The notes below the pieces were generated by a model. It made no database searches and was not told the origin of the DNA. It worked only from the letters and a program-made list of their open reading frames with translations. Positions 35,892 through 48,514 of a stretch of DNA of 64,000 nt are shown here, in pieces. The DNA comes from an uncultured Alphaproteobacteria bacterium (GTDB taxonomy: Bacteria > Pseudomonadota > Alphaproteobacteria > UBA7985), in the NCBI GenBank assembly GCA_905479265.1, contig CAJQLX010000027.1, forward strand, positions 1 through 64,000, written 5' to 3'. Within the stretch, counting starts at the first letter, position 1. Each line of letters opens with the position of its first letter. A program made the position numbers and the translations under genes.

Positions 35892-36464
35892 CTAGTTCAG
35901 CTTGCGTTTGAGGTTTCGCCGGTGCGCTTCGACCGTTCGTGTTGAGATATTCAGGCGATGGGCGATTTCTTTTGAACGCAGCCCTTCATCCATCATGCGC
36001 AGCACTTCGCGCTCGCGCAACGTCAGGGACTGGTGCTTGCTGTCATCGAAAGTCCGGTCGCCGAACAGCTTTTCCTTGATCGTTTCTGCGAAGTAAGAGC
36101 CGCCCATCGCGACCACTTGGACCGCGCGCTGCATTTCATCGAAGTCAGCGGATTTGAGCAAATACCCATCGGCCCCGGCTGCGGCAACGGCGCGGATATA
36201 GTCCTGACTGTCGTGGGTCGAAAGAACCAAAATTTTGCACGTCGGATTGGCTTGCTTGATCTGATGCGTGGCCTCGACCCCGTTTATGACCGGCATGGAT
36301 ATGTCCATAAGAATAAGGTCAAAGTCCACAGACGCGGCCAGATCCACCACCTGCTGTCCGTTGATGGCCTCGGCGACAATCTGCACGTCCATGCGCTGCA
36401 GTCGCACTTGCAGGGCTTCGCGGACAAGCTCATGGTCGTCTGCGATGATGGCGTTGATCGTCAT
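35892..36464 (-). CDS. NarL/FixJ-type response regulator
   Basis: 190 residues. The receiver domain (about 1-120) has the acidic pair in IADDHE, the phosphorylated aspartate at position 54 (LILMDISMP) and the conserved lysine in LLKSADFDE. A LuxR-type helix-turn-helix follows (about 130-188): LTLREREVLRMMDEGLRSKEIAHRLNIS (in parts) and TRTVEAHRRNL. Its start overlaps the stop of the kinase gene by four bases, so it is the kinase partner. It probably controls the divergent TRAP transporter operon, where repeated TACGTACGT sites lie. Confidence 0.95.
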   Translation of the reverse strand: MTINAIIADDHELVREALQVRLQRMDVQIVAEAINGQQVVDLAASVDFDLILMDISMPVINGVEATHQIKQANPTCKILVLSTHDSQDYIRAVAAAGADGYLLKSADFDEMQRAVQVVAMGGSYFAETIKEKLFGDRTFDDSKHQSLTLREREVLRMMDEGLRSKEIAHRLNISTRTVEAHRRNLKRKLN

Positions 36465-37816
36465 GGCGCTGCGGGCTCACTGGAAAGGGGCATGATGCCG
36501 ATCACTTGGGTTCCGCCGTCGGATGTCAGCGAGTGAATATCCAGCCGCCCACCCTGAGCCGCCAAGCGCTCCCGCATGTTGGCGATCCCCAGGCCGCTGT
36601 GCGCTTTCGAGCGGAGGCCTTTGCCGTCGTCTTCGATCGTCAAATGCACCGCCTTGCCCTTGATCCGCAGCGTAATCCAGACGCGATCGGCGTCGGCGTG
36701 CTTTGAGACGTTCGTCAGCGCCTCCTGCGCCACGCGAAACAGCGCCGATTTGCCAGCCTCTGTGAGTTTGTCGCCCAAGGATTGGATGTCGGGGTAGACC
36801 TTGCACTTGGATTGCAGCGCGTAGTCCTCGGCCAGAGACATCAAAGCCTGCTGCAAGCCCAATTGATCCAGCGCGGGCGGGCGCAGATTGCGTGCGATAG
36901 AGCTGAGTTCGGTGAGTGCGCGATCCAGCGTGCCACGCGACCGCCCAAGCGTTGCTTTCTGCTCAATCTGCGCAGGGTTCAAGTCGGCTTCTACCGCTTC
37001 GAGTGAATAGCGTGTCAGGATCAGCAGCTGAGAAATGCCGTCGTGAAGGTCGCGGGAAATGCGCTGTGATTGTTCTTCTTGAATCTCAACGATCCGGCTG
37101 TTGAGAGCCTTGAGTTTGGCGTCAGCGGTCCGCTGCACGTTGTGTTGAAAAGCATAAACGACGATGGCGGCCAACAAAACGGCCAAAAGACCAAAGCCCA
37201 TAACCCACAAAAAAGACCGCTGCACAGACCGGCCAATGGTGGCGTTCACAAGGTCCACTTCGCCGCGAATGTCATCCAGATAGAGACCCGTTCCCAGCAT
37301 CCAACCCCAGCTGTCGATCCCCAGAGCAAAGCCAATTTTTGGCTCTTCCAGTCCGGTTGAAGGTTTGTTCCATAGATAAGAGTGAAAACCGCCCCCGGCT
37401 TTGGCTTGCTCAATCAGCCCTTGAATCACAAAGTTGCCGTTGGGGTCTTGCAGATCCCACAGGTTCTGTCCGACCAGCTCACTCAAGCGGGGGTGCACAA
37501 GGTTATTGCCGGCATAATCGTAGACATAGAAGTAACCGTCTTCGCCAAACGTCATGGCATTCAGCACGGTTTTCGCTTGCTGCTGGCTCTGCGCTGTATT
37601 GCTTTGGCGTTTGACCAAGGGGCGAATCGCTGTCTCCGCCAGCTCAGCATAATTTGTCAGCGCGGTCTGCTTGTCCGACACCAATCGGTCTTCGATGAGG
37701 TTCCCCAACTCCGCCGAAAGCGTGGCAGTTTGACGCGTGACGACGCCCAACATCGCAGCGGCAAACAAGATGATCGGTATAACCGAGATGGCGAGCAAGT
37801 TGAGTCTGAGTCCCAT
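36461..37816 (-). CDS. Cache-domain membrane sensor histidine kinase
   Basis: 451 residues from the ATG at 37816 behind AAGG; upstream in-frame starts reach into the operator repeats and are unlikely. One membrane helix near residues 7-27 and another near 200-220 enclose a periplasmic single Cache domain: FGEDGYFYVYDYAGNNLVHP (in part), VGQNLWDLQDPNG, GWMLGTGLYLDDI. The HisKA_3 phosphoacceptor is His258 in RDLHDGISQ, and the HATPase region has ALTNVSKHADAD and SGLGIANMRERL. Such Cache kinases typically sense small carboxylates. Its position beside TRAP genes suggests that it senses the TRAP substrate. Confidence 0.93.
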   Translation of the reverse strand: MGLRLNLLAISVIPIILFAAAMLGVVTRQTATLSAELGNLIEDRLVSDKQTALTNYAELAETAIRPLVKRQSNTAQSQQQAKTVLNAMTFGEDGYFYVYDYAGNNLVHPRLSELVGQNLWDLQDPNGNFVIQGLIEQAKAGGGFHSYLWNKPSTGLEEPKIGFALGIDSWGWMLGTGLYLDDIRGEVDLVNATIGRSVQRSFLWVMGFGLLAVLLAAIVVYAFQHNVQRTADAKLKALNSRIVEIQEEQSQRISRDLHDGISQLLILTRYSLEAVEADLNPAQIEQKATLGRSRGTLDRALTELSSIARNLRPPALDQLGLQQALMSLAEDYALQSKCKVYPDIQSLGDKLTEAGKSALFRVAQEALTNVSKHADADRVWITLRIKGKAVHLTIEDDGKGLRSKAHSGLGIANMRERLAAQGGRLDIHSLTSDGGTQVIGIMPLSSEPAAP

Positions 37817-37872
37817 GGGCTGCCTTATACAGTGTCTGCCTCGCTTTGTGCATTGGCGTCGATGGGAATTGT

Positions 37873-37984
37873 CTACGTACGTAATTTTTTGGTCGCCACA
37901 CCGATTGCCGCGCGCACCGGATCGCACTACGTTCAAGGCGTGGTAATACGAGAAGATTGTATCGCCGTGCGACTACGTACGTCA
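37873..37984. promoter_or_regulatory. Repeated TACGTACGT sites upstream of the TRAP operon
   Basis: CTACGTACGT occurs at 37873-37882 and again at 37973-37982, exactly 100 bases apart. A partial copy, CTACGTTC, lies at 37927-37934. All are in the 280-base divergent region between the kinase and dctP1. NarL-family regulators often bind short palindromic TAC-type sites, so these are good candidates for the adjacent response regulator. The repeats are directly visible; the binding is inferred. Confidence 0.5.
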
Positions 37985-38096: not shown

Positions 38097-39194
38097 ATGA
38101 AACGTCGTGAGTTTCTTAAAGGCGCTGGTGTCGCTGGCGTAGCTGCAGGTGCAGTTGCCGCGACCGGTCTCGCTACCCCAGCACTGTCTCAGGGTCGTGA
38201 AAAGATTACGATGGTGACCACATGGGGCCGTGGCTCCTTTGGTGTACACGATGCTGCTCAGCGTGTTGCTGACAACGTTGCTGCCATCACCGGCGGAACG
38301 CTGGAAATTGATCTGAAGGCAAACGGCGAACTGGTTTCCGGTACGCAGGCTGCATGGGATGCAGTGACTTCTGGTACCGCAGACGCGTTCCACGCTGCTT
38401 CTTATTACTACATCGGTCAGCACCCTGCGCTGGCATTCTTTACGGCTGTACCGTTCGGAATGACCGCACAGGAAATCAATGACTGGATGTATGCTGGTGA
38501 AGGTCGTGCGCTGTACGACGAAATCGGTGAAGAGTTTGGCCTGAAAGGCTTCTTCGCGGGTAACACCGGTACGCAAGGTGGCGGTTGGTTCCGTAATGAA
38601 ATCAACTCTGCATCTGATTTCGAAGGCCTGAAGTACCGTATGCCTGGTCTGGGTGGTAAGGTGATTTCCAAGCTTGGTGCATCTTCGATCACCATGGCTG
38701 GCGGCGAAATCTTCCAGGCACTGCAGTCCGGCGCGATTGATGGCGCAGAGTGGATCGGCCCAGCTTCTGATGAGTCCCTTGGTCTCCAAGAAGCAACCAA
38801 CATCTACTACACCGCAGGCTTCCACGAGCCAGGTGCGGCACTGTCCTTCACGATGAACCTGGACCGCTGGGACTCCTTGTCCGAGTCACACCAGAGTGCA
38901 ATCGAAGTTGGTTGTGCTGATGCAAACGTACGCAGCCATTCTCAGTACATGGCCGCAAACGGTGCAGCACTTCAGCGTCTGATCGCTGGTGGTACCCGTG
39001 CGCTTGAGTTCCCAGATGACGTTTGGGATGGCTTTGGTCGCGGTTCTGTCGAAGTGTTTGAAGAGAACATGGATGATGAGTTCTTCAAGCGTTGTTACGA
39101 CAGCGTAATGGCCTCCATGCGGAGTTCTTCTGGTTGGGCGTCCCGCTCTTCCGGTCAGTACACCGCACAGCGTGACCGCGTTCTCGGCAGCTAA
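38097..39194 (+). CDS. TRAP transporter solute-binding protein, Tat signal (DctP1)
   Basis: 365 residues, with GGGAGGA before the ATG. The N-terminus carries a Tat signal (KRREFLKGAGVAG, cleavage near ATPALSQG). The mature part follows the DctP fold and resembles the alpha-keto-acid receptor group: MVTTWGRGSFGVHDAAQRVA (in part), GELVSGTQAAWDAV, FFTAVPFGM, FEGLKYRMPGLGG and GAIDGAEWIGPA. The Arg in KYRM is the usual carboxylate clamp. Codons are strongly biased to GGT, CGT, GCT and GCA, unlike neighbouring genes, which points to very high expression. It leads the TRAP operon; a hairpin follows its stop. Confidence 0.95.
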   Translation: MKRREFLKGAGVAGVAAGAVAATGLATPALSQGREKITMVTTWGRGSFGVHDAAQRVADNVAAITGGTLEIDLKANGELVSGTQAAWDAVTSGTADAFHAASYYYIGQHPALAFFTAVPFGMTAQEINDWMYAGEGRALYDEIGEEFGLKGFFAGNTGTQGGGWFRNEINSASDFEGLKYRMPGLGGKVISKLGASSITMAGGEIFQALQSGAIDGAEWIGPASDESLGLQEATNIYYTAGFHEPGAALSFTMNLDRWDSLSESHQSAIEVGCADANVRSHSQYMAANGAALQRLIAGGTRALEFPDDVWDGFGRGSVEVFEENMDDEFFKRCYDSVMASMRSSSGWASRSSGQYTAQRDRVLGS

Positions 39195-39455: not shown

Positions 39456-40688
39456 ATGGCCGTTATCATTGGATTTCTGACCGCAATCGCCCAGGGCTTC
39501 GTCAACTTGTTGCTCGCGCCTTACAAGGCCGGCACTTGGTTCTATGGCATCATGACCGGCGACGAGCGCGCAGCCGAAGCAGCGCCGCAGTTGCAGGCGA
39601 TGACGGCCAAGCTGGCCGAAAGTGGCGAGCTGGCCGCTTTCGATGCTGTCCTCAAAAAACAACCTGATCTCGTTGGCGCGGCGCAAGCAGCGATCGACGC
39701 CGCAACCTTCAACGGTGATGCGGCGGCGCTGCTCGAATACGCGCGACTGAAGGCCTTGGCCGTTGAATTCCCGGCGGATGACTACATCGTTAACGCCCTG
39801 ATTTTCGGCAAATCTTCTGACTTCTTCTTCATGTTCTTTGCGCTGGTTTTGACGCTTCTGATCGCTGGTCTGTTCTATCGCCCCGTCTTGCGCAGCGTCG
39901 CAGGGGGCATTGATCGGTTCAATGGAACGCTGGGCAAACTGGCGTCTTGGTTCGTTCTGTTCATGGCTTTCCAGCAGATCATGATCATTTTCTTGCAGCA
40001 GGTTTTCCGCTCAAACGGGTTGCCTATTTCGTTTTTTGGGTTGGAGCTGGTGCCCGGAGACGACGTGCTGACCATGCCATGGTTTGCGACCGAACTGCTG
40101 TTGTACAACGCGATTATCATCGCCTTTGCTTGCGCTTACACGTTCATGGACGAGGGCCACGTCAGGGTGGATTTGATCTATGGCGCGATGAGCCGTCGGG
40201 TAAAGCATTGGATCGACGTTGTGGGAACGCTGATTTTCCTGATGCCATCGATGATTGGCCTTTGGTGGGTATCGTGGCACTTGGCGATGAACAAGATCTT
40301 CCAGATTACGTCGTTCAACCCGCTCACGCAGCTGATTCTAACCCGCAACTTCGATGGCCGGATCCCCGGCGCGTCGAGTTTCAAACAGATCAACTGGAAC
40401 ACATCGACAGGCGAAAACTTCAGTCACGTTCCGCTGTATTACCTGCTCATCCTCATACTGGCTGCGCTGATGCTGATTCAAGCTGTTGGCTTCCTTTTCT
40501 CCAGCCTTGATAAGGGCCTTACCTCCGACACGGAGCATGCCCGCCGAGAACGCGAAGACGCAGCAAACAGGGGTGAAGCCGACCCTGAGCAACTGACCGC
40601 GCAGGCCATTCAAGACGCCACTGACGCCGCAACAGACGGCACAGCCCCAACAACCAACGCCAGCCGTCCGACCCTTGGTTCGGCATAA
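39456..40688 (+). CDS. Enlarged TRAP small permease subunit (DctQ1)
   Basis: 410 residues, about twice the usual DctQ. The DctQ core lies at about 160-355: LASWFVLFMAFQQIMIIFLQQ (in part), ELLLYNAIIIAFACAYTFMDEGHVRVDLIY (in part), RRVKHWIDVVGTLIFLMPSM and a last helix near YYLLILILAALMLIQAVGF. Ahead of it is an extra segment: a first hydrophobic stretch (1-25), an Ala-rich helical stretch (about 38-115) and a helix near 128-148. An insert (FNPLTQLILTRNFDGRIPGASSF, in part) precedes the last helix, and a charged C-terminal tail (about 360-410) ends it. It pairs with the equally enlarged DctM1. Confidence 0.85.
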   Translation: MAVIIGFLTAIAQGFVNLLLAPYKAGTWFYGIMTGDERAAEAAPQLQAMTAKLAESGELAAFDAVLKKQPDLVGAAQAAIDAATFNGDAAALLEYARLKALAVEFPADDYIVNALIFGKSSDFFFMFFALVLTLLIAGLFYRPVLRSVAGGIDRFNGTLGKLASWFVLFMAFQQIMIIFLQQVFRSNGLPISFFGLELVPGDDVLTMPWFATELLLYNAIIIAFACAYTFMDEGHVRVDLIYGAMSRRVKHWIDVVGTLIFLMPSMIGLWWVSWHLAMNKIFQITSFNPLTQLILTRNFDGRIPGASSFKQINWNTSTGENFSHVPLYYLLILILAALMLIQAVGFLFSSLDKGLTSDTEHARREREDAANRGEADPEQLTAQAIQDATDAATDGTAPTTNASRPTLGSA

Positions 40689-40719: not shown

Positions 40720-43700
40720 ATGCTCTTTGGATTAGACGGCGTCGAACTCAGCCTGGTCATCGTTTTCGGAACGTTGTTCATGGCTATCCTTTCCGGTTAT
40801 CCCGTTGCGTTCGCGCTATCGGGTTCAGCCATCATCAGCTTTGTGCTCATTGCGATTGGGTCCGAGTTGGGCTGGTTGCTGGTGGAATACGAAGGCGAAC
40901 TCAAACCGCTGCTTGCAGCCCATCATGAGATATTTGACGGGCCCGCCTGGCAGAAAGGGCTGGATACGCTCGCCCAGTGGAGCAACAACAACTACTCCCG
41001 CGCCTTTGGCGAGAACCAGAATGACACGCTGCTGGCTGTGCCGCTGTTCGTCCTGATGGGCATCGCGCTTGAGCGGTCTAAGATCGCCGAAGAGCTGCTG
41101 ACCTCTATGGGGCGTTTGTTTGGTGGCATGCCGGGCGGGTTGGCTGTCTCGGTGGTGTTGGTTGGTGCGCTGTTGGCGGCGTCAACGGGCATCGTGGGCG
41201 CGACCGTTGTGACGATGGGGTTGATTTCCCTGCCGACCATGCTGCGGGCGGGTTACTCCAAAGAACTCTCTACCGGGGTTATCGCGACGTCTGGCACCTT
41301 GGGTCAGATCATTCCGCCGTCCATCGTATTGGTGTTGCTCGGCTCGATGGTGGGCGACATCTATTCCTCCGCGCAGAAGGGCCGGTCCCAAGATCTTGGC
41401 ATTCCGTTGCCGGAACTGCTGGGTGATGACATCGCGATTTCGACCGGAACACTGTTTAAAGCGGCCTTTATACCGGGGATTGTCCTCGCGCTCCTCTACG
41501 CCGCTTACGCCTTGGGCTATGCGCTGCTTCGTCCCCACGCTGCCCCGCCGATCAAGCAAAACCCGGACGCGAACACCTATGATCTGCTGGGGGACTATGG
41601 GCGCTCCGCTGGTCGTGCAGCTGGCGCGATCGCTTTGCCGTCGCTGGGCTTTATCGCGGTTTGGGTTATTGCGGCTTTTGTCGGCTATGTCGGCTCACAA
41701 AAACCACCGCAGGACGTTCTAGAATTTGCCAACGCCCAAGCGTTGCTGGAAGAAATCGAGCGCGCGCGTGCATCTGATATTGATGCGGGTGATTGGGCAG
41801 ATTTGCAGGAATTTACGGCGCTGGTTTCGCGGGCAAAGCCTATTCCGCAAGACTTACAAACCCGCGTTGATGTTTTGCTGGATGGCACGGACGGTTCCGT
41901 CATCACCGCCACGCTGCGCGAGATCGAATTTACCGAACGTAAGTCCACGCTTTTGCGCGGCATTGATCGTTTTGCAAGCTCCATTGATGCCATGCTTGGA
42001 CCCGATTTAGCCGCTCCTTATTTCGAAGTCCTGCAACGAGCAGAGGGCGCGAACACGCTCCCTGAACTGACCGCTGCGGTAAAAGGCGCGCCACGCGGAC
42101 AAACCGTGCAAAAGCTGGTCAATCGCGCCGACAAGGAATTCGACTTTACGCCCTACAAACTGGTCGCTGAGGACTACGCCTCTGCCGTGTCCAAGGCGCG
42201 GAGAAAGTCGGTGATCCGAAAATTCAAGGATGACCCAGAAGGCACGGTGGAAGAGCTTGAGCGTCGTTCGGTGCTGCTGGGCGAAAAAATTGCCGCTTTG
42301 CAGGCGCTTTACGAACGTTTCTTCGAGCCTGAGGTCAATGCCGCTTTCGCCGACAACCTCGCAATCATCCAGTCCGCAACGGATCTTGAAACGCAGCTGA
42401 ACGCGATCCGCGAGTTGCCGGCATCCGGCGATCTGGATCGGGCGGTTTCGAGCGTTGATGGCTTGCTGAAGCGGGAGTCCTATCTCGCCTCGTCGTTCTC
42501 TTACGACCGCGCAATCCGTCAAGTTGCGGACGGGCAGGTGCCATTTGCTGTTTCCAAGCCCGTGACGTCAGAAGCGGCGAACCTGCTGCGTAAAGCCTTC
42601 CCGGACATGGGCAACGGCGACGCGCCAAAGCAGCTTTCGGCGTACTTCCGTGACAGTCTCGATAACTACGTTGTGCCGGCAATATCCATGGGGGTCGCGG
42701 CGTTCCTGACACTGGTTTCGGTGTCGTTTGCTTTGGCAGCATCGTTGCGTCGCCGCGCATCACAAACGCCGATTCTGGTTGGCGCGCTTGGTGTTCTGTC
42801 CTTTGTGGCTGTGGCGATTTGGCTGGTTGATCCATCGACCTCACCGTGGACGCGCACGGCACTGTATTTCATCCCGACGGCCCTGATCATCTACGGCATG
42901 GTTGGCGCGGTTCCGCGCTTGCTGGAGGTCGAGGTGATTCGCGTGGTCGTGCCGCCCGTCGTTCTGATTGTTGCCGTTCTGGGCTCCATCTTTGGCGGCA
43001 TTACCAACCCGACACCGGCTGCCGCCTTGGGCGCTGGTGGCGCTATCTTGCTGTCAGCGATCAAGCTGCTGGAACGTGACGTGCAGGTTGGGCCGTTTGA
43101 CAACAAGATTGGGCGAAACATCCTGCTTTGGACGGCAGCGTCGATCGCCGTCATGCTCTTGGTAAAGGCCAACTTCCTCGACGGTAACCAAGCCGTTGGA
43201 TTTGGCAAAGCAACCGCGTCAGGCATCGCGTCAGCTCTTTACGTCATTTCCATTCTTGGCATGATTTACGCGGTTATTGTCCTGTTGGGCGCGCGTGTCG
43301 AAGGTGGCCGACCCGTTGCGAACCCACGCACCATCGCAGGCGCGACCAAGTCGTTCTTGTTCAGCAAGGACCGCGTGCTTTCGTCCATCCTGATGGAAAC
43401 GGCAAAGGTCTCGATTATGGTCTTTGCGATCCTGATCGGTTCTCAGCTGTTGGCGCTGACCCTGCGATCCTTTGGCGGGGAAGAGTACATCGAACACTTC
43501 CTGCGCTCGTTCGAAGATCCGCGAACGCTTCTGCTGGTTGTCATGGTGGTTTTGTTCGTGCTCGGGTTCGTTCTGGACTTTATCGAAATCATTTTCATCG
43601 TTATCCCGATTGTGGGACCGGTGATCTATGGTGCCGATCCGAACATCATGCATCCTGCCTGGATCACGATTCTCATCGCGGTGAACTTGCAGACCTCATT

Positions 43701-43884
43701 TATCACGCCGCCCTTTGGGTTCGCGCTGTTCTACCTGCGAGGTGTGGCACCGCCTGAGATTCAGACCAGCAACATTTATCGAGGGATTATCCCATTCGTC
43801 ATCATTCAGGTCGTGGGCCTGACCATTCTGTGGTTCTTCCCACAAATCACGACCTTCCTCCCGGATTTACTGCCGGACAATTGA
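40720..43884 (+). CDS. Giant TRAP large permease subunit (DctM1) with soluble insertion
   Basis: 1054 residues against the usual 430. The DctM N-terminal half (1-320) is clear: LSGYPVAFALSG, LLAVPLFVLMGIALERS, GLAVSVVLVGALLAASTGIVGATVVTM (in part) and TSGTLGQIIPPSIVLVLL. Residues about 326-648 are a soluble, mainly helical insertion starting after GYVGSQKPPQD. New membrane helices follow (about 650-735). The DctM second half then resumes with VVLIVAVLGSIFGGITNPTPAAALGAGG (in part), followed by an additional hydrophobic stretch (about 790-860) and the final ETAKVSIMVFAILIG, FIEIIFIVIPI, NLQTSFITPPFGFALFYLRG. The reading frame is intact, so this is not an assembly or frameshift artefact. The insertion function is unknown. 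Confidence 0.9.
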   Translation: MLFGLDGVELSLVIVFGTLFMAILSGYPVAFALSGSAIISFVLIAIGSELGWLLVEYEGELKPLLAAHHEIFDGPAWQKGLDTLAQWSNNNYSRAFGENQNDTLLAVPLFVLMGIALERSKIAEELLTSMGRLFGGMPGGLAVSVVLVGALLAASTGIVGATVVTMGLISLPTMLRAGYSKELSTGVIATSGTLGQIIPPSIVLVLLGSMVGDIYSSAQKGRSQDLGIPLPELLGDDIAISTGTLFKAAFIPGIVLALLYAAYALGYALLRPHAAPPIKQNPDANTYDLLGDYGRSAGRAAGAIALPSLGFIAVWVIAAFVGYVGSQKPPQDVLEFANAQALLEEIERARASDIDAGDWADLQEFTALVSRAKPIPQDLQTRVDVLLDGTDGSVITATLREIEFTERKSTLLRGIDRFASSIDAMLGPDLAAPYFEVLQRAEGANTLPELTAAVKGAPRGQTVQKLVNRADKEFDFTPYKLVAEDYASAVSKARRKSVIRKFKDDPEGTVEELERRSVLLGEKIAALQALYERFFEPEVNAAFADNLAIIQSATDLETQLNAIRELPASGDLDRAVSSVDGLLKRESYLASSFSYDRAIRQVADGQVPFAVSKPVTSEAANLLRKAFPDMGNGDAPKQLSAYFRDSLDNYVVPAISMGVAAFLTLVSVSFALAASLRRRASQTPILVGALGVLSFVAVAIWLVDPSTSPWTRTALYFIPTALIIYGMVGAVPRLLEVEVIRVVVPPVVLIVAVLGSIFGGITNPTPAAALGAGGAILLSAIKLLERDVQVGPFDNKIGRNILLWTAASIAVMLLVKANFLDGNQAVGFGKATASGIASALYVISILGMIYAVIVLLGARVEGGRPVANPRTIAGATKSFLFSKDRVLSSILMETAKVSIMVFAILIGSQLLALTLRSFGGEEYIEHFLRSFEDPRTLLLVVMVVLFVLGFVLDFIEIIFIVIPIVGPVIYGADPNIMHPAWITILIAVNLQTSFITPPFGFALFYLRGVAPPEIQTSNIYRGIIPFVIIQVVGLTILWFFPQITTFLPDLLPDN

Positions 43885-44603
43885 CGATCCAGAGTTGGGG
43901 TCGCAGTGCACTGAGTGCTGCGATCCTGCTGGCTGCTTTCGCTGGGCTGTTTGCGCTTGGCGGTTGGTGTGCCATTGGTCATCCCCCAAAGCCCTTTGCC
44001 AGCGCAGAGGGCTTTTTTGTGTCTGGGATTCAGCTGCAAACCGCCGCGCTGACGGTGCTGGGTTTTGCTTTGGTCTGGAAAGGCCCAGACCTCGACAGCC
44101 TGCTCGACGCGGGCGCGGCCTTGTTGTGGCGAGTGGCGGCTCTGGCTGCCGTTGGGTCAATGGCGATCGTGTTCCTGTGGGCCAGTGCGCGGTTCCTGTT
44201 TGGGATCAGCTTCTTTCCCCCGCAAAGCCTGACACTGTCATTTTCGGAAACATGGTGGATCGAGGTAGCCATGGCTCTGTTTGGCATCGCACTGACGGGT
44301 GCGATCCCGATTTTGCTCCGCTGGGGCGGTCACGTATCCATTGATGCTTTGGCGCCGATGCTGGGCGCGCGAGCAAAGCGGTTGGTCGCTCGCGCAGGCG
44401 CCGTGTTTCTGGCCTTACCCGTCGGTTGGCTTTTGTTGACCAAGGGAACGATCTTCGCCGCGCGCGCTTGGGATCAAAGCGAAGGATCAGCCAACTTCGG
44501 CATCGAGTTCGTGTTTCTGGTGAAGACGTTGGTGCCTTTGCTCGGTTATCTTATCGTGGTTTTTGCCCTTGCGGGGCTCAGGGGCAGGAGCCTGCCCGAA
44601 TGA
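43881..44603 (+). CDS. TRAP small permease subunit (DctQ2)
   Basis: 240 residues if translation starts at the TTG at 43881, which overlaps the dctM1 stop (TTGA); a GTG at 43830 is an alternative. About five hydrophobic segments are visible. DctQ-like features are weak but present: WWIEVAMALFGIALTGAIPILLRWGGHVSIDAL (in part), the HVSIDAL block corresponding to HVRVDLI of DctQ1, and ARAKRLVARAGAVFLALPVGW. Its stop overlaps the dctM2 start (ATGA). Both overlaps argue for one transcript and for coupled translation with the two DctM genes. Confidence 0.78.
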   Translation: MTIQSWGRSALSAAILLAAFAGLFALGGWCAIGHPPKPFASAEGFFVSGIQLQTAALTVLGFALVWKGPDLDSLLDAGAALLWRVAALAAVGSMAIVFLWASARFLFGISFFPPQSLTLSFSETWWIEVAMALFGIALTGAIPILLRWGGHVSIDALAPMLGARAKRLVARAGAVFLALPVGWLLLTKGTIFAARAWDQSEGSANFGIEFVFLVKTLVPLLGYLIVVFALAGLRGRSLPE

Positions 44604-46162
44604 TGGTTGAGCTGATCATCCTGCTCCTGTTTCTGGGCGCGACCTTCACCTGTTTGCTCAGTGGCTATCCTGTCGCCTTTGGGTTGGGGGGCGTGGGCGT
44701 TCTGGTCCTTGGTGGCCTCATCGCGCTATCGATGGTGGGGGTGCCGCTCACGGGGGCCGATGGTTGGGCCATTGTGGACGCGACCGGTTGGCGTGATCTT
44801 TCCCCGCTGGCCAGCGACGTGTACCGCCATATGGCACCCAGTGGCCAAACCTTGCTCGCCATCCCCCTGTTTGTCTTCATGGGCACAGTGCTTCAGCGTT
44901 CCGCTCTGGCCGATCGATTGTTTGAAGCCGTGCCAGCGCTCACACGCCGGGTTCCCGGTGGATTGGGCGTTGCTGTGGTTTTGGTTGGTGGTTTGCTTGC
45001 GGCCTCGACCGGGGTTGTTGGGGCGTCTGTCGTCACCCTGTCAGCCATCGCTCTGCCGGCGCTTTTGCGCAACGGCTACGGGTTCCGCAACGCCGCGGGC
45101 GTGGTCACGGCTTCCGGTACGTTGGGCCAAGTCATTCCCCCGTCGATCATCTTGATCCTGCTGGCCGAGCAAGTCGGCGTGCAGTTTCAAAGCGCCCAAA
45201 TTGCACAGGGCAACTTCGCGCCCTTGGCGGTCACCAGCGGTGATTTGTTCCGAGCGGCGCTTGTTCCCGGCGTGCTGGTCATGTTGGGTTTCGCGGGATT
45301 GGCGCTTTGGTTTGGGCGTCATGCGACGGGAACCGATGATGCAAAAATGATGAGTTGGCGCGCGATTGCCAACGGTATTTTACCCCCCGTGGGCCTGATC
45401 GTGCTGGTGCTGGGGTCGATCGTCACGGGGGTTGCAGACACCACGTCTGCGGCGTCGTTCGGCGCCGTTGGCGCGGCGGTGCTGGCCAGTCGCAGCAGCG
45501 TCCTGATCTGGTCCACCACTGTGCTGACCGTCCTGATTTTTGGGTGGCGTCAGTTTGCAGGTTTTACCGCCTTGGAACCCCTGATTTTAGCGCTTTACCT
45601 CGTTGTTTTGGCGATGGTGGCGTGGGCAGGTTACTTGGGTTTCCGCCGAGGCGTCTTTCAGGCTGCACTCAATGACATGCTGCGGCTTACGGCCATGATC
45701 TTTGCCATTATCGTAGGCGCCGGTTTGTTTGCGCTGTGCATCAAGGCGATTGGCGGAGACGATTTGCTCTCTCAGGGCATGATTGCGCTCACCGCGTTGG
45801 TTGGCGCGGAAGACCCACAGCAGACCGCTCGGGCCGCCTTGCTCGTCCTGCTGATGATCATTTTCCTGCTGGGCTTTGTTCTGGAGTTTGTGGAGATCAT
45901 CGTGGTTGTTTTGCCGCTGGCGCTGCCCGTGGTGTTTTCGGTCCCGCCAGAGGTGCTTGATCCGGTCTGGGCGGGTATCCTGATCGCTTTGACGCTGCAG
46001 ACCTCGTTTCTGACCCCACCCTTTGGCGTCGCCCTGTTCTATTTTCGGGGCGCTGTGCCGGATCAAGGTTCGACCTTGCAACTCTACCGGGGCGTCCTGC
46101 CGTTTATCGCTGTGCAGGTTATGGTGATTGTACTGGTTTGGTTCGTTCCTGCGCTGATTTAA
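44600..46162 (+). CDS. TRAP large permease subunit (DctM2)
   Basis: 520 residues from the ATG at 44600, which overlaps the dctQ2 stop and has GCAGGAG upstream. DctM features: LLSGYPVAFGLGGVGVLV, LLAIPLFVFMGTVLQRS, GVAVVLVGGLLAASTGVVGASVVTL (in part), TASGTLGQVIPPSIILILL, and the end FVEIIVVVLPLALPVV plus LQTSFLTPPFGVALFYFRG. It is moderately longer than usual because of a stretch between the halves (about 330-400) and a short insert near residues 50-80. It lacks the 320-residue soluble insertion of DctM1 but aligns with it in all core motifs, so the two are paralogues. Confidence 0.93.
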   Translation: MMVELIILLLFLGATFTCLLSGYPVAFGLGGVGVLVLGGLIALSMVGVPLTGADGWAIVDATGWRDLSPLASDVYRHMAPSGQTLLAIPLFVFMGTVLQRSALADRLFEAVPALTRRVPGGLGVAVVLVGGLLAASTGVVGASVVTLSAIALPALLRNGYGFRNAAGVVTASGTLGQVIPPSIILILLAEQVGVQFQSAQIAQGNFAPLAVTSGDLFRAALVPGVLVMLGFAGLALWFGRHATGTDDAKMMSWRAIANGILPPVGLIVLVLGSIVTGVADTTSAASFGAVGAAVLASRSSVLIWSTTVLTVLIFGWRQFAGFTALEPLILALYLVVLAMVAWAGYLGFRRGVFQAALNDMLRLTAMIFAIIVGAGLFALCIKAIGGDDLLSQGMIALTALVGAEDPQQTARAALLVLLMIIFLLGFVLEFVEIIVVVLPLALPVVFSVPPEVLDPVWAGILIALTLQTSFLTPPFGVALFYFRGAVPDQGSTLQLYRGVLPFIAVQVMVIVLVWFVPALI

Positions 46163-46256
46163 AAACGGTTCTTCAATCTTTAGAGACATAATCGACTCTT
46201 TCCTTTTTTATCAGCCTCATCAGTGCCAAGACTGGCGTCCTTCACAAAGGAGCATC

Positions 46257-47363
46257 ATGGCCGCCTCATCTGCCAAACTTCGTCGTCGTCAAGTGCTGGC
46301 CAGTGGGCTGGGCGCTTTGTCCCTGCTTGCCGCGCCTAACGTGGTGCGGGCACAGGCGAGGGTCGTTCGAATGTCGTCGGTTTGGGGGCGCGGATTTCCC
46401 ATTGTTGGCCCCTCAGCACAGCGTTTGGCCGAGCGTCTGACAGCAATCACCGATGGCGCGTTGCGGGTTGAGCTGTTTGCTGCGGGGGAACTGGGCAGCC
46501 CCGGCGAGGCGCACGCGCGCGCCGGTGCTGGCGAAGTGGAAATGTATCACGGTGTCGAATATTTTTGGTCGGCCAAGAACCCGGCTTTTTACCTGTTTTC
46601 CGGTGTGCCATTTGGCCTGACGGGGTTGGAGTTGCTGGGCTGGTTGACCGGTTCAGGCGCGGAACATTGGGACGCCATACAAGCCCCGTTCAACATCAAG
46701 CCCTTTTCCGCCGGTATGCTGGCGGGTGGGCTTGGGGTTTGGTCGAACAAGCGTTTGGAATCGCTGGACGACTTCGATGGGCTGACGATCCGATCGAGCG
46801 GTTTGGCAAGGACGCTTTTGAAGTCTTTGGGTGCCGACGCCCGCCCCGTTAGCTTTGCACGTCTGGCCTCGGCCCTCAGTTTGGGCGCTTTGGACGCAAC
46901 GGAGTGGTTCGGACCCTGGGCCGATCCACAGGGCGAGATCACTGAAGCCACAAAGTATCTCTATGGCCCTCCGGTGCTCCGGCCCGCTTTGGGAATATCG
47001 GTAGGGCTAAACCTGCCATTTTGGTTCAGTTTGACCGAGCCGCAGCGCTTGGCTTTTCGCAGTGTGTTTGCCGCAGAAAGTCACCGCATGCTGTTGAGCA
47101 CGCATCAGGAAAACGCGCGCTTGCTTGGCGCGATGCAAGCCACAGGGCAGATGCGAAAAGTGCGCAATTTCAGCCCCGAGCTGCTTACTGATTTGGGACG
47201 TCAATCGGGGCAGGTCTTGCGGCAGACGATGGATGGCTCGGACGAGGCAACAGCAATTCTTAACGATTATCTCAGTTTTCGAGCCCAGTCTTATCGTGAA
47301 GTGCTCAACGGCTCGTCCGGCTTCATGAAGTCGCGCGAACTACCGTTTCCGTTTGCGCAATGA
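46257..47363 (+). CDS. TRAP transporter solute-binding protein (DctP2)
   Basis: 368 residues, with AAAGGAG five bases before the ATG. The N-terminus LRRRQVLASGLGALSLLAAPNVVRAQA (in part) is a probable Tat signal. The mature protein parallels DctP1: VRMSSVWGRGFPIVGPSAQRLA (in part), GELGSPGEAHARAG, LFSGVPFGLTGLE, FDGLTIRSSGL and LGALDATEWFGPWADP. Unlike DctP1 its codon use is ordinary and GC-rich. It is the last TRAP component of the run and is followed after 38 bases by an oxidoreductase gene. The clamp arginine (LTIRSSG) is kept, so a carboxylate ligand is likely. Confidence 0.93.
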   Translation: MAASSAKLRRRQVLASGLGALSLLAAPNVVRAQARVVRMSSVWGRGFPIVGPSAQRLAERLTAITDGALRVELFAAGELGSPGEAHARAGAGEVEMYHGVEYFWSAKNPAFYLFSGVPFGLTGLELLGWLTGSGAEHWDAIQAPFNIKPFSAGMLAGGLGVWSNKRLESLDDFDGLTIRSSGLARTLLKSLGADARPVSFARLASALSLGALDATEWFGPWADPQGEITEATKYLYGPPVLRPALGISVGLNLPFWFSLTEPQRLAFRSVFAAESHRMLLSTHQENARLLGAMQATGQMRKVRNFSPELLTDLGRQSGQVLRQTMDGSDEATAILNDYLSFRAQSYREVLNGSSGFMKSRELPFPFAQ

Positions 47364-47401
47364 GCCGATAGGTTTTGATGGTTATTTTGGAGAGCCCAAG
47401 C

Positions 47402-48514
47402 GTGTCAGATACTTCCCCCCTGTTCCAGCCGTTCAAGCTTCGCAGCATGACCATTCCCAATCGGATCGTAATGGCGCCGATGACCCGTAACTTCAGTCCC
47501 AATGGCGTGCCGACGGATGAGGTTCGGGATTACTACCGGCGACGGGCAGAGGCCCACGTGGGGCTCATTATCTCTGAGGGAACGACCGTGGCGCGCGGTG
47601 GGGCGAGCAATGATCCGCGCATCCCGAACTTTCACAAGCCAGACGCGCTGGCCGGGTGGAAGAGCGTCATTTCAGCGGTTCAAGACGTTGGCGGCGTGAT
47701 GGGGCCACAGTTGTGGCATCAGGGGATGCTGCGAAAGCCCGGAACAGGCCCGGACCCTGACGCGCCGTCGGATGGTCCCTCGGGCCTAACGCACCGGGGC
47801 AAAGCCGTACAGGACGCACCAAGCGAAGAAGACGTCTGGGACATGGTCACGGCGTTTGCTGATGCTGCGGGCGAGGCTAAGCGCTTGGGTTTTGATTGCA
47901 TCGAACTCCACGGCGCGCACGGTTACCTGATCGACGAGTTCTTCTGGAGCGTTATGAATGTCCGTGAAGACCGCTTTGGCGGGGACTTACCCGACCGCGC
48001 AACCTTTGCCGCCGAAATCATCAAACAGTGCCGGGAGCGGGTTGGCGACGACATGCCAATCATCCTGCGGTTCTCTCAGTGGAAGTCGCAAGACTACGAC
48101 GCAAAACTGGCCGAAAGCCCGCAAGAGCTGGAAGCTTTCTTGCGCGTGTTTGTCGAGGCCGGCGTGGATTGCCTGCACTGCTCACAGCGCCGTTTCTGGG
48201 AAGCAGAATTTGAGGCTGTGGACGGCATGGACGGGCTGAACTTGGCGGGATGGGCGAAAAAGCTGACCGGACTGCCCACCATCACGGTTGGTTCAGTTGG
48301 GTTGAGTACCGAGTTTACCGGTGCCTTCCGCGGGGAAAGCTCGAAAACGCGCCCCCTGACCGACGTGATCGAACGTCTGGAGCGTGGGGAGTTTGACATG
48401 GTGGGCGTCGGACGCGCGCTGTTGCAGGATCCGTTTTGGGCACAAAAGATTTTCGACGGAAACTTTGAAGATCTGTCCGACTATGACGCGGCAGCGCTGA
48501 AAACGCTCTACTAG
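47402..48514 (+). CDS. Old Yellow Enzyme family NADH:flavin oxidoreductase
   Basis: 370 residues from a GTG at 47402 with GGAG nine bases upstream; ATG 47378 is an alternative. It is an FMN TIM-barrel protein: LFQPFKLRSMTIPNRIVMAPMTR (in part), LIISEGTTV, PQLWHQG, FDCIELHGAHGYLIDEFF (in part), NVREDRFGG and a C-terminal MVGVGRALLQDP. OYE enzymes reduce activated double bonds. The usual His-His or His-Asn pair appears as HGAH. It probably acts on the substrate brought in by the TRAP system, as the last gene of that run. It is convergent with zur, four bases apart. Confidence 0.92.
   Translation: MSDTSPLFQPFKLRSMTIPNRIVMAPMTRNFSPNGVPTDEVRDYYRRRAEAHVGLIISEGTTVARGGASNDPRIPNFHKPDALAGWKSVISAVQDVGGVMGPQLWHQGMLRKPGTGPDPDAPSDGPSGLTHRGKAVQDAPSEEDVWDMVTAFADAAGEAKRLGFDCIELHGAHGYLIDEFFWSVMNVREDRFGGDLPDRATFAAEIIKQCRERVGDDMPIILRFSQWKSQDYDAKLAESPQELEAFLRVFVEAGVDCLHCSQRRFWEAEFEAVDGMDGLNLAGWAKKLTGLPTITVGSVGLSTEFTGAFRGESSKTRPLTDVIERLERGEFDMVGVGRALLQDPFWAQKIFDGNFEDLSDYDAAALKTLY

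Follow-up and report, generated by a model that had tools for sequence, protein, structure and literature searches.

A helical domain inserted into the large permease of a DctP-type TRAP importer is confined, among sampled genomes, to one alphaproteobacterial genus

Gene organization of the locus

The window analyzed, a 64,000-nucleotide stretch of DNA from an uncultured alphaproteobacterium, encodes a TRAP importer, DctPQM1, with enlarged small and large permeases, next to a two-component regulatory pair. The features discussed below are as follows.

35892 to 36464, reverse strand: LuxR-type response regulator, partner of the kinase (Pfam Response_reg, GerE)
36461 to 37936, reverse strand: divergent sensor kinase with a sCache_2 periplasmic domain (Pfam sCache_2 7.8e-40, HisKA_3, HATPase_c); the start is probably later than the TTG given
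38097 to 39194, forward strand: dctP1, TakP/SmoM-type solute receptor with a TAT signal (Pfam DctP 4.9e-44; PDB 2hzk 1.1e-66, 7ug8 2.3e-67)
39456 to 40688, forward strand: dctQ1, small permease of 410 aa (Pfam DctQ 1.3e-08; aligned relatives)
39561 to 39806, forward strand: soluble DctQ1 insertion, residues ~36-117, flanked by a pair of additional hydrophobic helices at the N-terminus (alignment; hydropathy at 2-20 and 123-141)
40720 to 43884, forward strand: dctM1, TRAP large permease with a predicted periplasmic insertion (open frame; Pfam DctM 2.4e-57 in two stretches; full-length orthologues in three congeneric genomes)
41626 to 41682, forward strand: extra membrane helix A, DctM1 residues 303-321, preceding the insertion (hydropathy; found in relatives of 690-808 aa, not in ordinary ones)
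41698 to 42669, forward strand: soluble helical insertion, DctM1 residues ~327-650 (loop-length alignment, 7-12, 70-74 and 324-325 residues; hydropathy; all-helical prediction with pLDDT 59)
41923 to 42540, forward strand: probable tandem duplication within the insertion, pairing residues 402-498 with 511-607 at offset 109 (profile self-comparison, hhalign, helix coincidence)
42682 to 42912, forward strand: extra membrane helices B, C and D, residues 655-673, 685-703 and 713-731, following the insertion (hydropathy; RRR after B marks the cytoplasmic side; same clade distribution as helix A)

The dctM1 frame is uninterrupted over 1054 residues, and the original prediction of an intact frame carrying all DctM core motifs in order was borne out. 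DctM1 belongs to the Pfam DctM family (PF06808), scoring 195.1 bits against a cut-off of 23.8. The match falls into two stretches, residues 16-211 covering profile positions 1-160 and the C-terminal ~220 residues covering positions 205-413, which shows a core present in order but interrupted. Both twin-proline motifs, which in TM5 and TM11 adjoin the Na+ sites (PMC9971032), are present as IPPS at ~198-201 and TPPF at ~996-999 and are invariant across a nine-sequence DctM alignment. The NCBIfam model TIGR00786 (dctM) matches DctM1 in three stretches with 238.5 bits, below its cut-off of 268.45. Because the neighbouring permease M2 likewise stays under this cut-off (206.1 bits), the insertion alone does not account for the shortfall.

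DctM lengths were surveyed in 13 genomes, as proposed earlier. Most of the DctM frames listed have 430-600 residues, fused or other long forms reach 700-950, and only DctM1 and its orthologues exceed 1000 residues among the matches listed. The initial estimate of about 2.5 times the normal length therefore stands against ordinary DctM, but is reduced to ~1.5 times against DctM1's own subfamily of 690-700 aa. Two other oversized frames (G009:C22:48207-49823 and G011:C2:115012-116604; 949 and 892 aa) have a core that looks contiguous, so their extra length is probably terminal.

dctP1 and dctQ1 adjoin dctM1 just upstream, the arrangement of a DctP-type TRAP system. The TakP (SmoM) system of Rhodobacter sphaeroides (PDB 2hzk/2hzl) has a receptor of the same family as DctP1 and the same order of receptor gene, then dctQ and dctM homologues. 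In the excerpted text of the TakP report, the pyruvate and cation ligands are Tyr100, Gln156, Arg177, Glu214, Trp215 and Glu240, and TakP is a helix-swapped dimer, with the C-terminal helix present in every homologue its authors examined (PMC1839085). All six of the ligands given there are identical in DctP1, and the alignment extends to TakP residue 349 of 365. The same excerpt describes no enlarged permease for the TakP system. DctPQM1, a TRAP importer of the DctP type, is predicted to take up a pyruvate-like 2-oxo acid.

The sCache_2 kinase/LuxR-type pair adjoins dctP1 here and in another member of the genus, and a similar pair lies near dctM of a more distant relative (L049), which suggests that the pair likely controls the transporter. 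Directly downstream of dctM1 is a second, complete TRAP set (43830-47363) with Q2 from ~43830, M2 at ~44600-46162 and P2 at 46257-47363, where the M2 start was chosen from the Q2/M2 overlap. Over the aligned segments, M2 and M1 share about 43-46% identity, and the Q2 and M1 frames overlap. An Old-yellow-enzyme-type flavin oxidoreductase (47375-48514) follows the second set and is likewise placed in two other genus members.

Conservation and distribution of the insertion

The description of a soluble helical domain flanked by extra membrane helices proved correct. The insertion is a cysteine-free, soluble segment of 324 aa with a net charge of about -13 and a strongly conserved basic patch at residues ~490-504; DctM1 as a whole likewise has no cysteine. 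Full-length orthologues bearing the insertion align end to end with DctM1 in three congeneric genomes (G001 and G003 with 88% identity each, G005 with 79%), whose matching public records are three separately named MAGs. Among congeners the insertion alone is 63-78% identical, compared with 86-93% for the core; it is faster-evolving and less constrained than the core. Its dN/dS is 0.05-0.17 with synonymous changes near saturation across the four species, and its length differs among them by a one-residue indel only. The congeneric orthologues and the purifying selection argue that the insertion is a maintained part of the protein, explained by neither a frameshift nor a chimeric assembly. Two further congeneric genomes, 79 and 63% complete, yielded orthologues of neither permease nor receptor.

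Searches of sequence and structure databases, suggested at the outset, gave no significant relative of the insertion. The best Pfam match had an E-value of 0.0078; it was to DUF7528, which matched in only 2 of 4 members and was not credible. Nothing in the PDB was better than E 0.15 by sequence, or under E 0.39 in a Foldseek search with the weak model of the insertion. No credible homologue appeared in 385 genomes of the class and 398 of the phylum, and matches in two class genomes (G044 and G132; E 0.003-0.008) lay in short frames, spanned 44-54 residues and were attributed to chance. Viral contigs searched with the whole DctM alignment gave no match. A genome-wide pattern scan, whose reach is close relatives only, recovered the insertion in the three congeners alone. 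Within the sampled genomes, the insertion is restricted to this genus.

Predicted structure and a probable internal repeat

The insertion is predicted to be all-helical, at a pLDDT of 58.7 for the isolated domain. The AlphaFold model of full-length DctM1, built from a shallow alignment of eight sequences, reached a pLDDT of 42.1 and was not used for topology. Comparing the insertion profile with itself revealed an ungapped match of 97 columns at offset 109 with a score of 35.4. The next-best offset scored 22.7, and among 300 column shuffles 3 did as well as the offset-109 match. For the duplication, hhalign gave a p-value of 0.005, and in the low-confidence full-length model the helices 428-442 and 537-551 as well as 447-455 and 556-564 coincide at the same offset. 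A tandem duplication of a ~109-residue unit inside the insertion is probable, although not proven.

Extra membrane helices and the history of the enlargement

A tree of DctM1 and 20 relatives was built from core columns only. Ordinary relatives have 14-18 residues between DctM1 positions 277 and 737, that is between TM6 and TM7. In a clade with a support of 100/100, this stretch is at least 143-147 residues long, room for four extra membrane helices. Within this clade, the loop between the first and second extra helices measures 7 residues in family f44, 12 in f3, 70-74 in f25/f37 and 324-325 only in members of this genus. The nearest insertion-free homologues, of 690-705 aa (G007/G009 and G051/G177/G273), share the four extra helices and align over DctM1 residues 1-330 and 648-1053, with 7-12 residues in between where DctM1 has the insertion. 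Their identity to DctM1 is 52-62% across the aligned segments of the N-terminal half and up to 75% at the C-terminus. The extra helices, common to a clade of several families, are thus older than the insertion, and the novelty is confined to the domain between them. Since the genus is sister to the clade with 7 residues at the site (support 94/99), the domain is read as a gain; in the simplest history, the four helices would have been gained first and the domain afterwards in this genus.

Other permeases of the group carry additions of their own. The f25/f37 permeases L017, L062, L063, L064, L065 and L072 have the loop of 70-74 aa at the insertion site, and four f25/f37 loops contain an [ED]ECxASMI[DE]LHG motif that includes one Cys, which points to a small periplasmic element of independent origin. 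A helical C-terminal extension of ~338 aa is found instead on DctM of G006 and G008, from the same order, and G011 (L051:1317-3977, L052:5604-8261, L053:6569-9232), where it is predicted to be periplasmic by family topology. Homology of the insertion to these extensions, to the 70-74-aa loops or to the DctQ insertion found no support with hhalign.

The original prediction that the neighbouring DctQ is enlarged as well was confirmed, DctQ1 having 410 aa compared with 269-309 aa in its relatives. In the alignment, the relatives also show the extra N-terminal hydrophobic pair, and the loop inside the pair is ~80 residues larger only in this genus. By sequence comparison, the enlargement of DctQ parallels that of DctM1 in its history. 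The DctQ1 insertion has a net charge of -7.

Predicted membrane side of both insertions

In PpSiaQM, the M subunit has 12 TM segments in an N-out/C-out topology with a scaffold of TMs 1-3 and 7-9, and Q is N-in/C-in (PMC9971032). The published M topology makes the TM6-TM7 connection cytoplasmic and places the loop after extra helix A in the periplasm. Hydropathy and loop charges are compatible with 12 core TM segments, N-out/C-out, for DctM1: the ratios of K+R to D+E are 4/3 (267-302), 3/0 (674-684) and 7/3 (859-896) in the inside loops and 3/9 in the outside loop 48-103. In DctQ1, the loop after helix 123-141 is basic (4/1), which puts residues 36-117 outside. Family topology and the positive-inside charges together suggest that both insertions are periplasmic.

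Discussion

DctPQM1 belongs to a lineage of a few related marine bacteria, in which the insertion is real, conserved and lineage-specific. We propose that in this genus the periplasmic loop between the first and second extra helices, in the TM6-TM7 region, was expanded to a helical domain of ~324 residues, probably in part through the tandem duplication of the ~109-residue unit, and that DctQ1 gained ~80 periplasmic residues alongside. The insertion lies between TM6 of the first transport half and TM7 of the second scaffold half, and Q is part of the scaffold, so that both insertions are most likely attached to the stator. They could make up a larger periplasmic rim, capturing or orienting the receptor, which is TakP-like and probably dimeric, and acting like the P2 loop of MalF or the claw of VcGluQM. 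We put the probability of this reading, in which the stator offers the receptor a larger docking surface on its periplasmic side, at roughly 45%, with its sidedness, stator attachment and docking all inferred. The conservation of the domain, its gain relative to the sister clade, the predicted sidedness, the matching DctQ insertion, the TakP-type receptor with all six ligands and the VcGluQM precedent speak for it. Against it stand the poor quality of both predicted structures, the faster evolution of the domain relative to the core, and the relatives with a loop of 7-12 residues and the same kind of receptor, which presumably transport without an insertion. Simple electrostatic docking is also disfavoured, as the receptor (net charge -19) and the two insertions are all net acidic, although the insertion does carry the conserved basic patch at residues ~490-504. 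A more elaborate version, in which an undescribed helical family found only in this genus and arisen by tandem duplication would form a capture platform with the DctQ insertion, possibly holding both halves of the dimeric receptor so that two substrates are delivered in turn, strikes us as a long shot.

Several other explanations deserve weighing. The domain might bind a partner other than DctP, such as peptidoglycan, a porin of the outer membrane, a further envelope protein or another copy of the transporter, and thereby place or oligomerize the importer. A large, helical, lineage-specific domain predicted to be periplasmic, with probable internal repeats, would suit such a role, and the unrelated additions on related permeases, loops of 70-74 aa and C-terminal extensions of ~338 aa, indicate that periplasmic additions are tolerated or favoured in this group. 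However, the insertion resembles no peptidoglycan- or porin-binding family in Pfam or the PDB, and receptor docking explains the matched DctQ insertion equally well; we consider envelope anchoring unlikely. Neutral accretion, in which the loops of the subfamily grow by duplication with little functional effect and persist through a stable fold, could account for the range of loop lengths from 7 to 325 among relatives, the differing, unrelated additions in sister groups and an insertion that outpaces the core in evolution. This explanation is made doubtful too by strong purifying selection, with synonymous sites close to saturation and only a single-residue indel across four species, and by the parallel expansion of DctQ.

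Of the sensor, scaffold and docking roles first suggested for the domain, scaffold and docking gained from the predicted periplasmic side, the position at the stator half and the matching DctQ insertion, but none of the tests made here supported the sensor role. A domain binding a solute to gate transport or to signal to the adjacent sCache_2 kinase would fit the kinase/regulator pair beside dctP1 in two genus members and the related pair near a distant dctM. Yet the kinase carries a periplasmic Cache domain of its own, a similar pair also lies near a permease with a loop of only 74 aa (G032), and the insertion has neither a credible match to a sensor family nor a significant fold match, which renders this role improbable. 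The assembly is MAG-like and fragmented (61 contigs), which might have hinted that an error of sequencing or assembly, or a frameshift, had fused foreign DNA into dctM. The orthologues refute this: the insertion occupies the identical site in three other assemblies, with an intact frame under purifying selection.

The P2 loop of MalF is a large periplasmic insertion in the permease of the receptor-dependent maltose importer. It belongs to an unrelated ABC transporter, and receptor contact by the DctM1 insertion is putative. The VcGluQM report itself draws a parallel with the maltose importer, and describes for this TAXI-type system a predicted periplasmic claw domain between the last helices, restricted to a small group and proposed to hold the receptor; according to its authors, no such extension has been reported for DctP-type systems (PMC11574862). 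The claw and the DctM1 insertion are alike in being predicted globular domains within a TRAP membrane component, in a loop on the periplasmic side. However, the claw is a DUF3394 domain, mainly beta, C-terminal in a fused permease and attached to the transport domain, whereas the DctM1 insertion is predicted to be all-helical, is central in a DctP-type permease and lies probably on the stator side. Pfam finds no DUF3394 match in DctM1 or its insertion and DctQ is separate, which sets DctM1 apart from the claw systems. The earlier statement that no characterized TRAP permease has this layout thus holds for DctP-type systems within the literature consulted, with the TAXI-type VcGluQM as a precedent for the idea.

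Importers of this kind are known, and for the idea of adding a domain on the periplasmic side there is the TAXI-type precedent. The new element is a helical domain, apparently orphan and probably duplicated, that sits centrally in a DctP-type permease and has a counterpart insertion in DctQ. Close relatives lack these large, removable additions, and loops of 7, 12, 74 or 324 residues at one site of the same transporter constitute a natural experiment, bearing on the still poorly understood engagement of TRAP receptors with their membrane components, especially for dimeric TakP-type receptors. With each step of the enlargement visible in one lineage, the family illustrates in graded steps how a secondary transporter comes by a new periplasmic domain.
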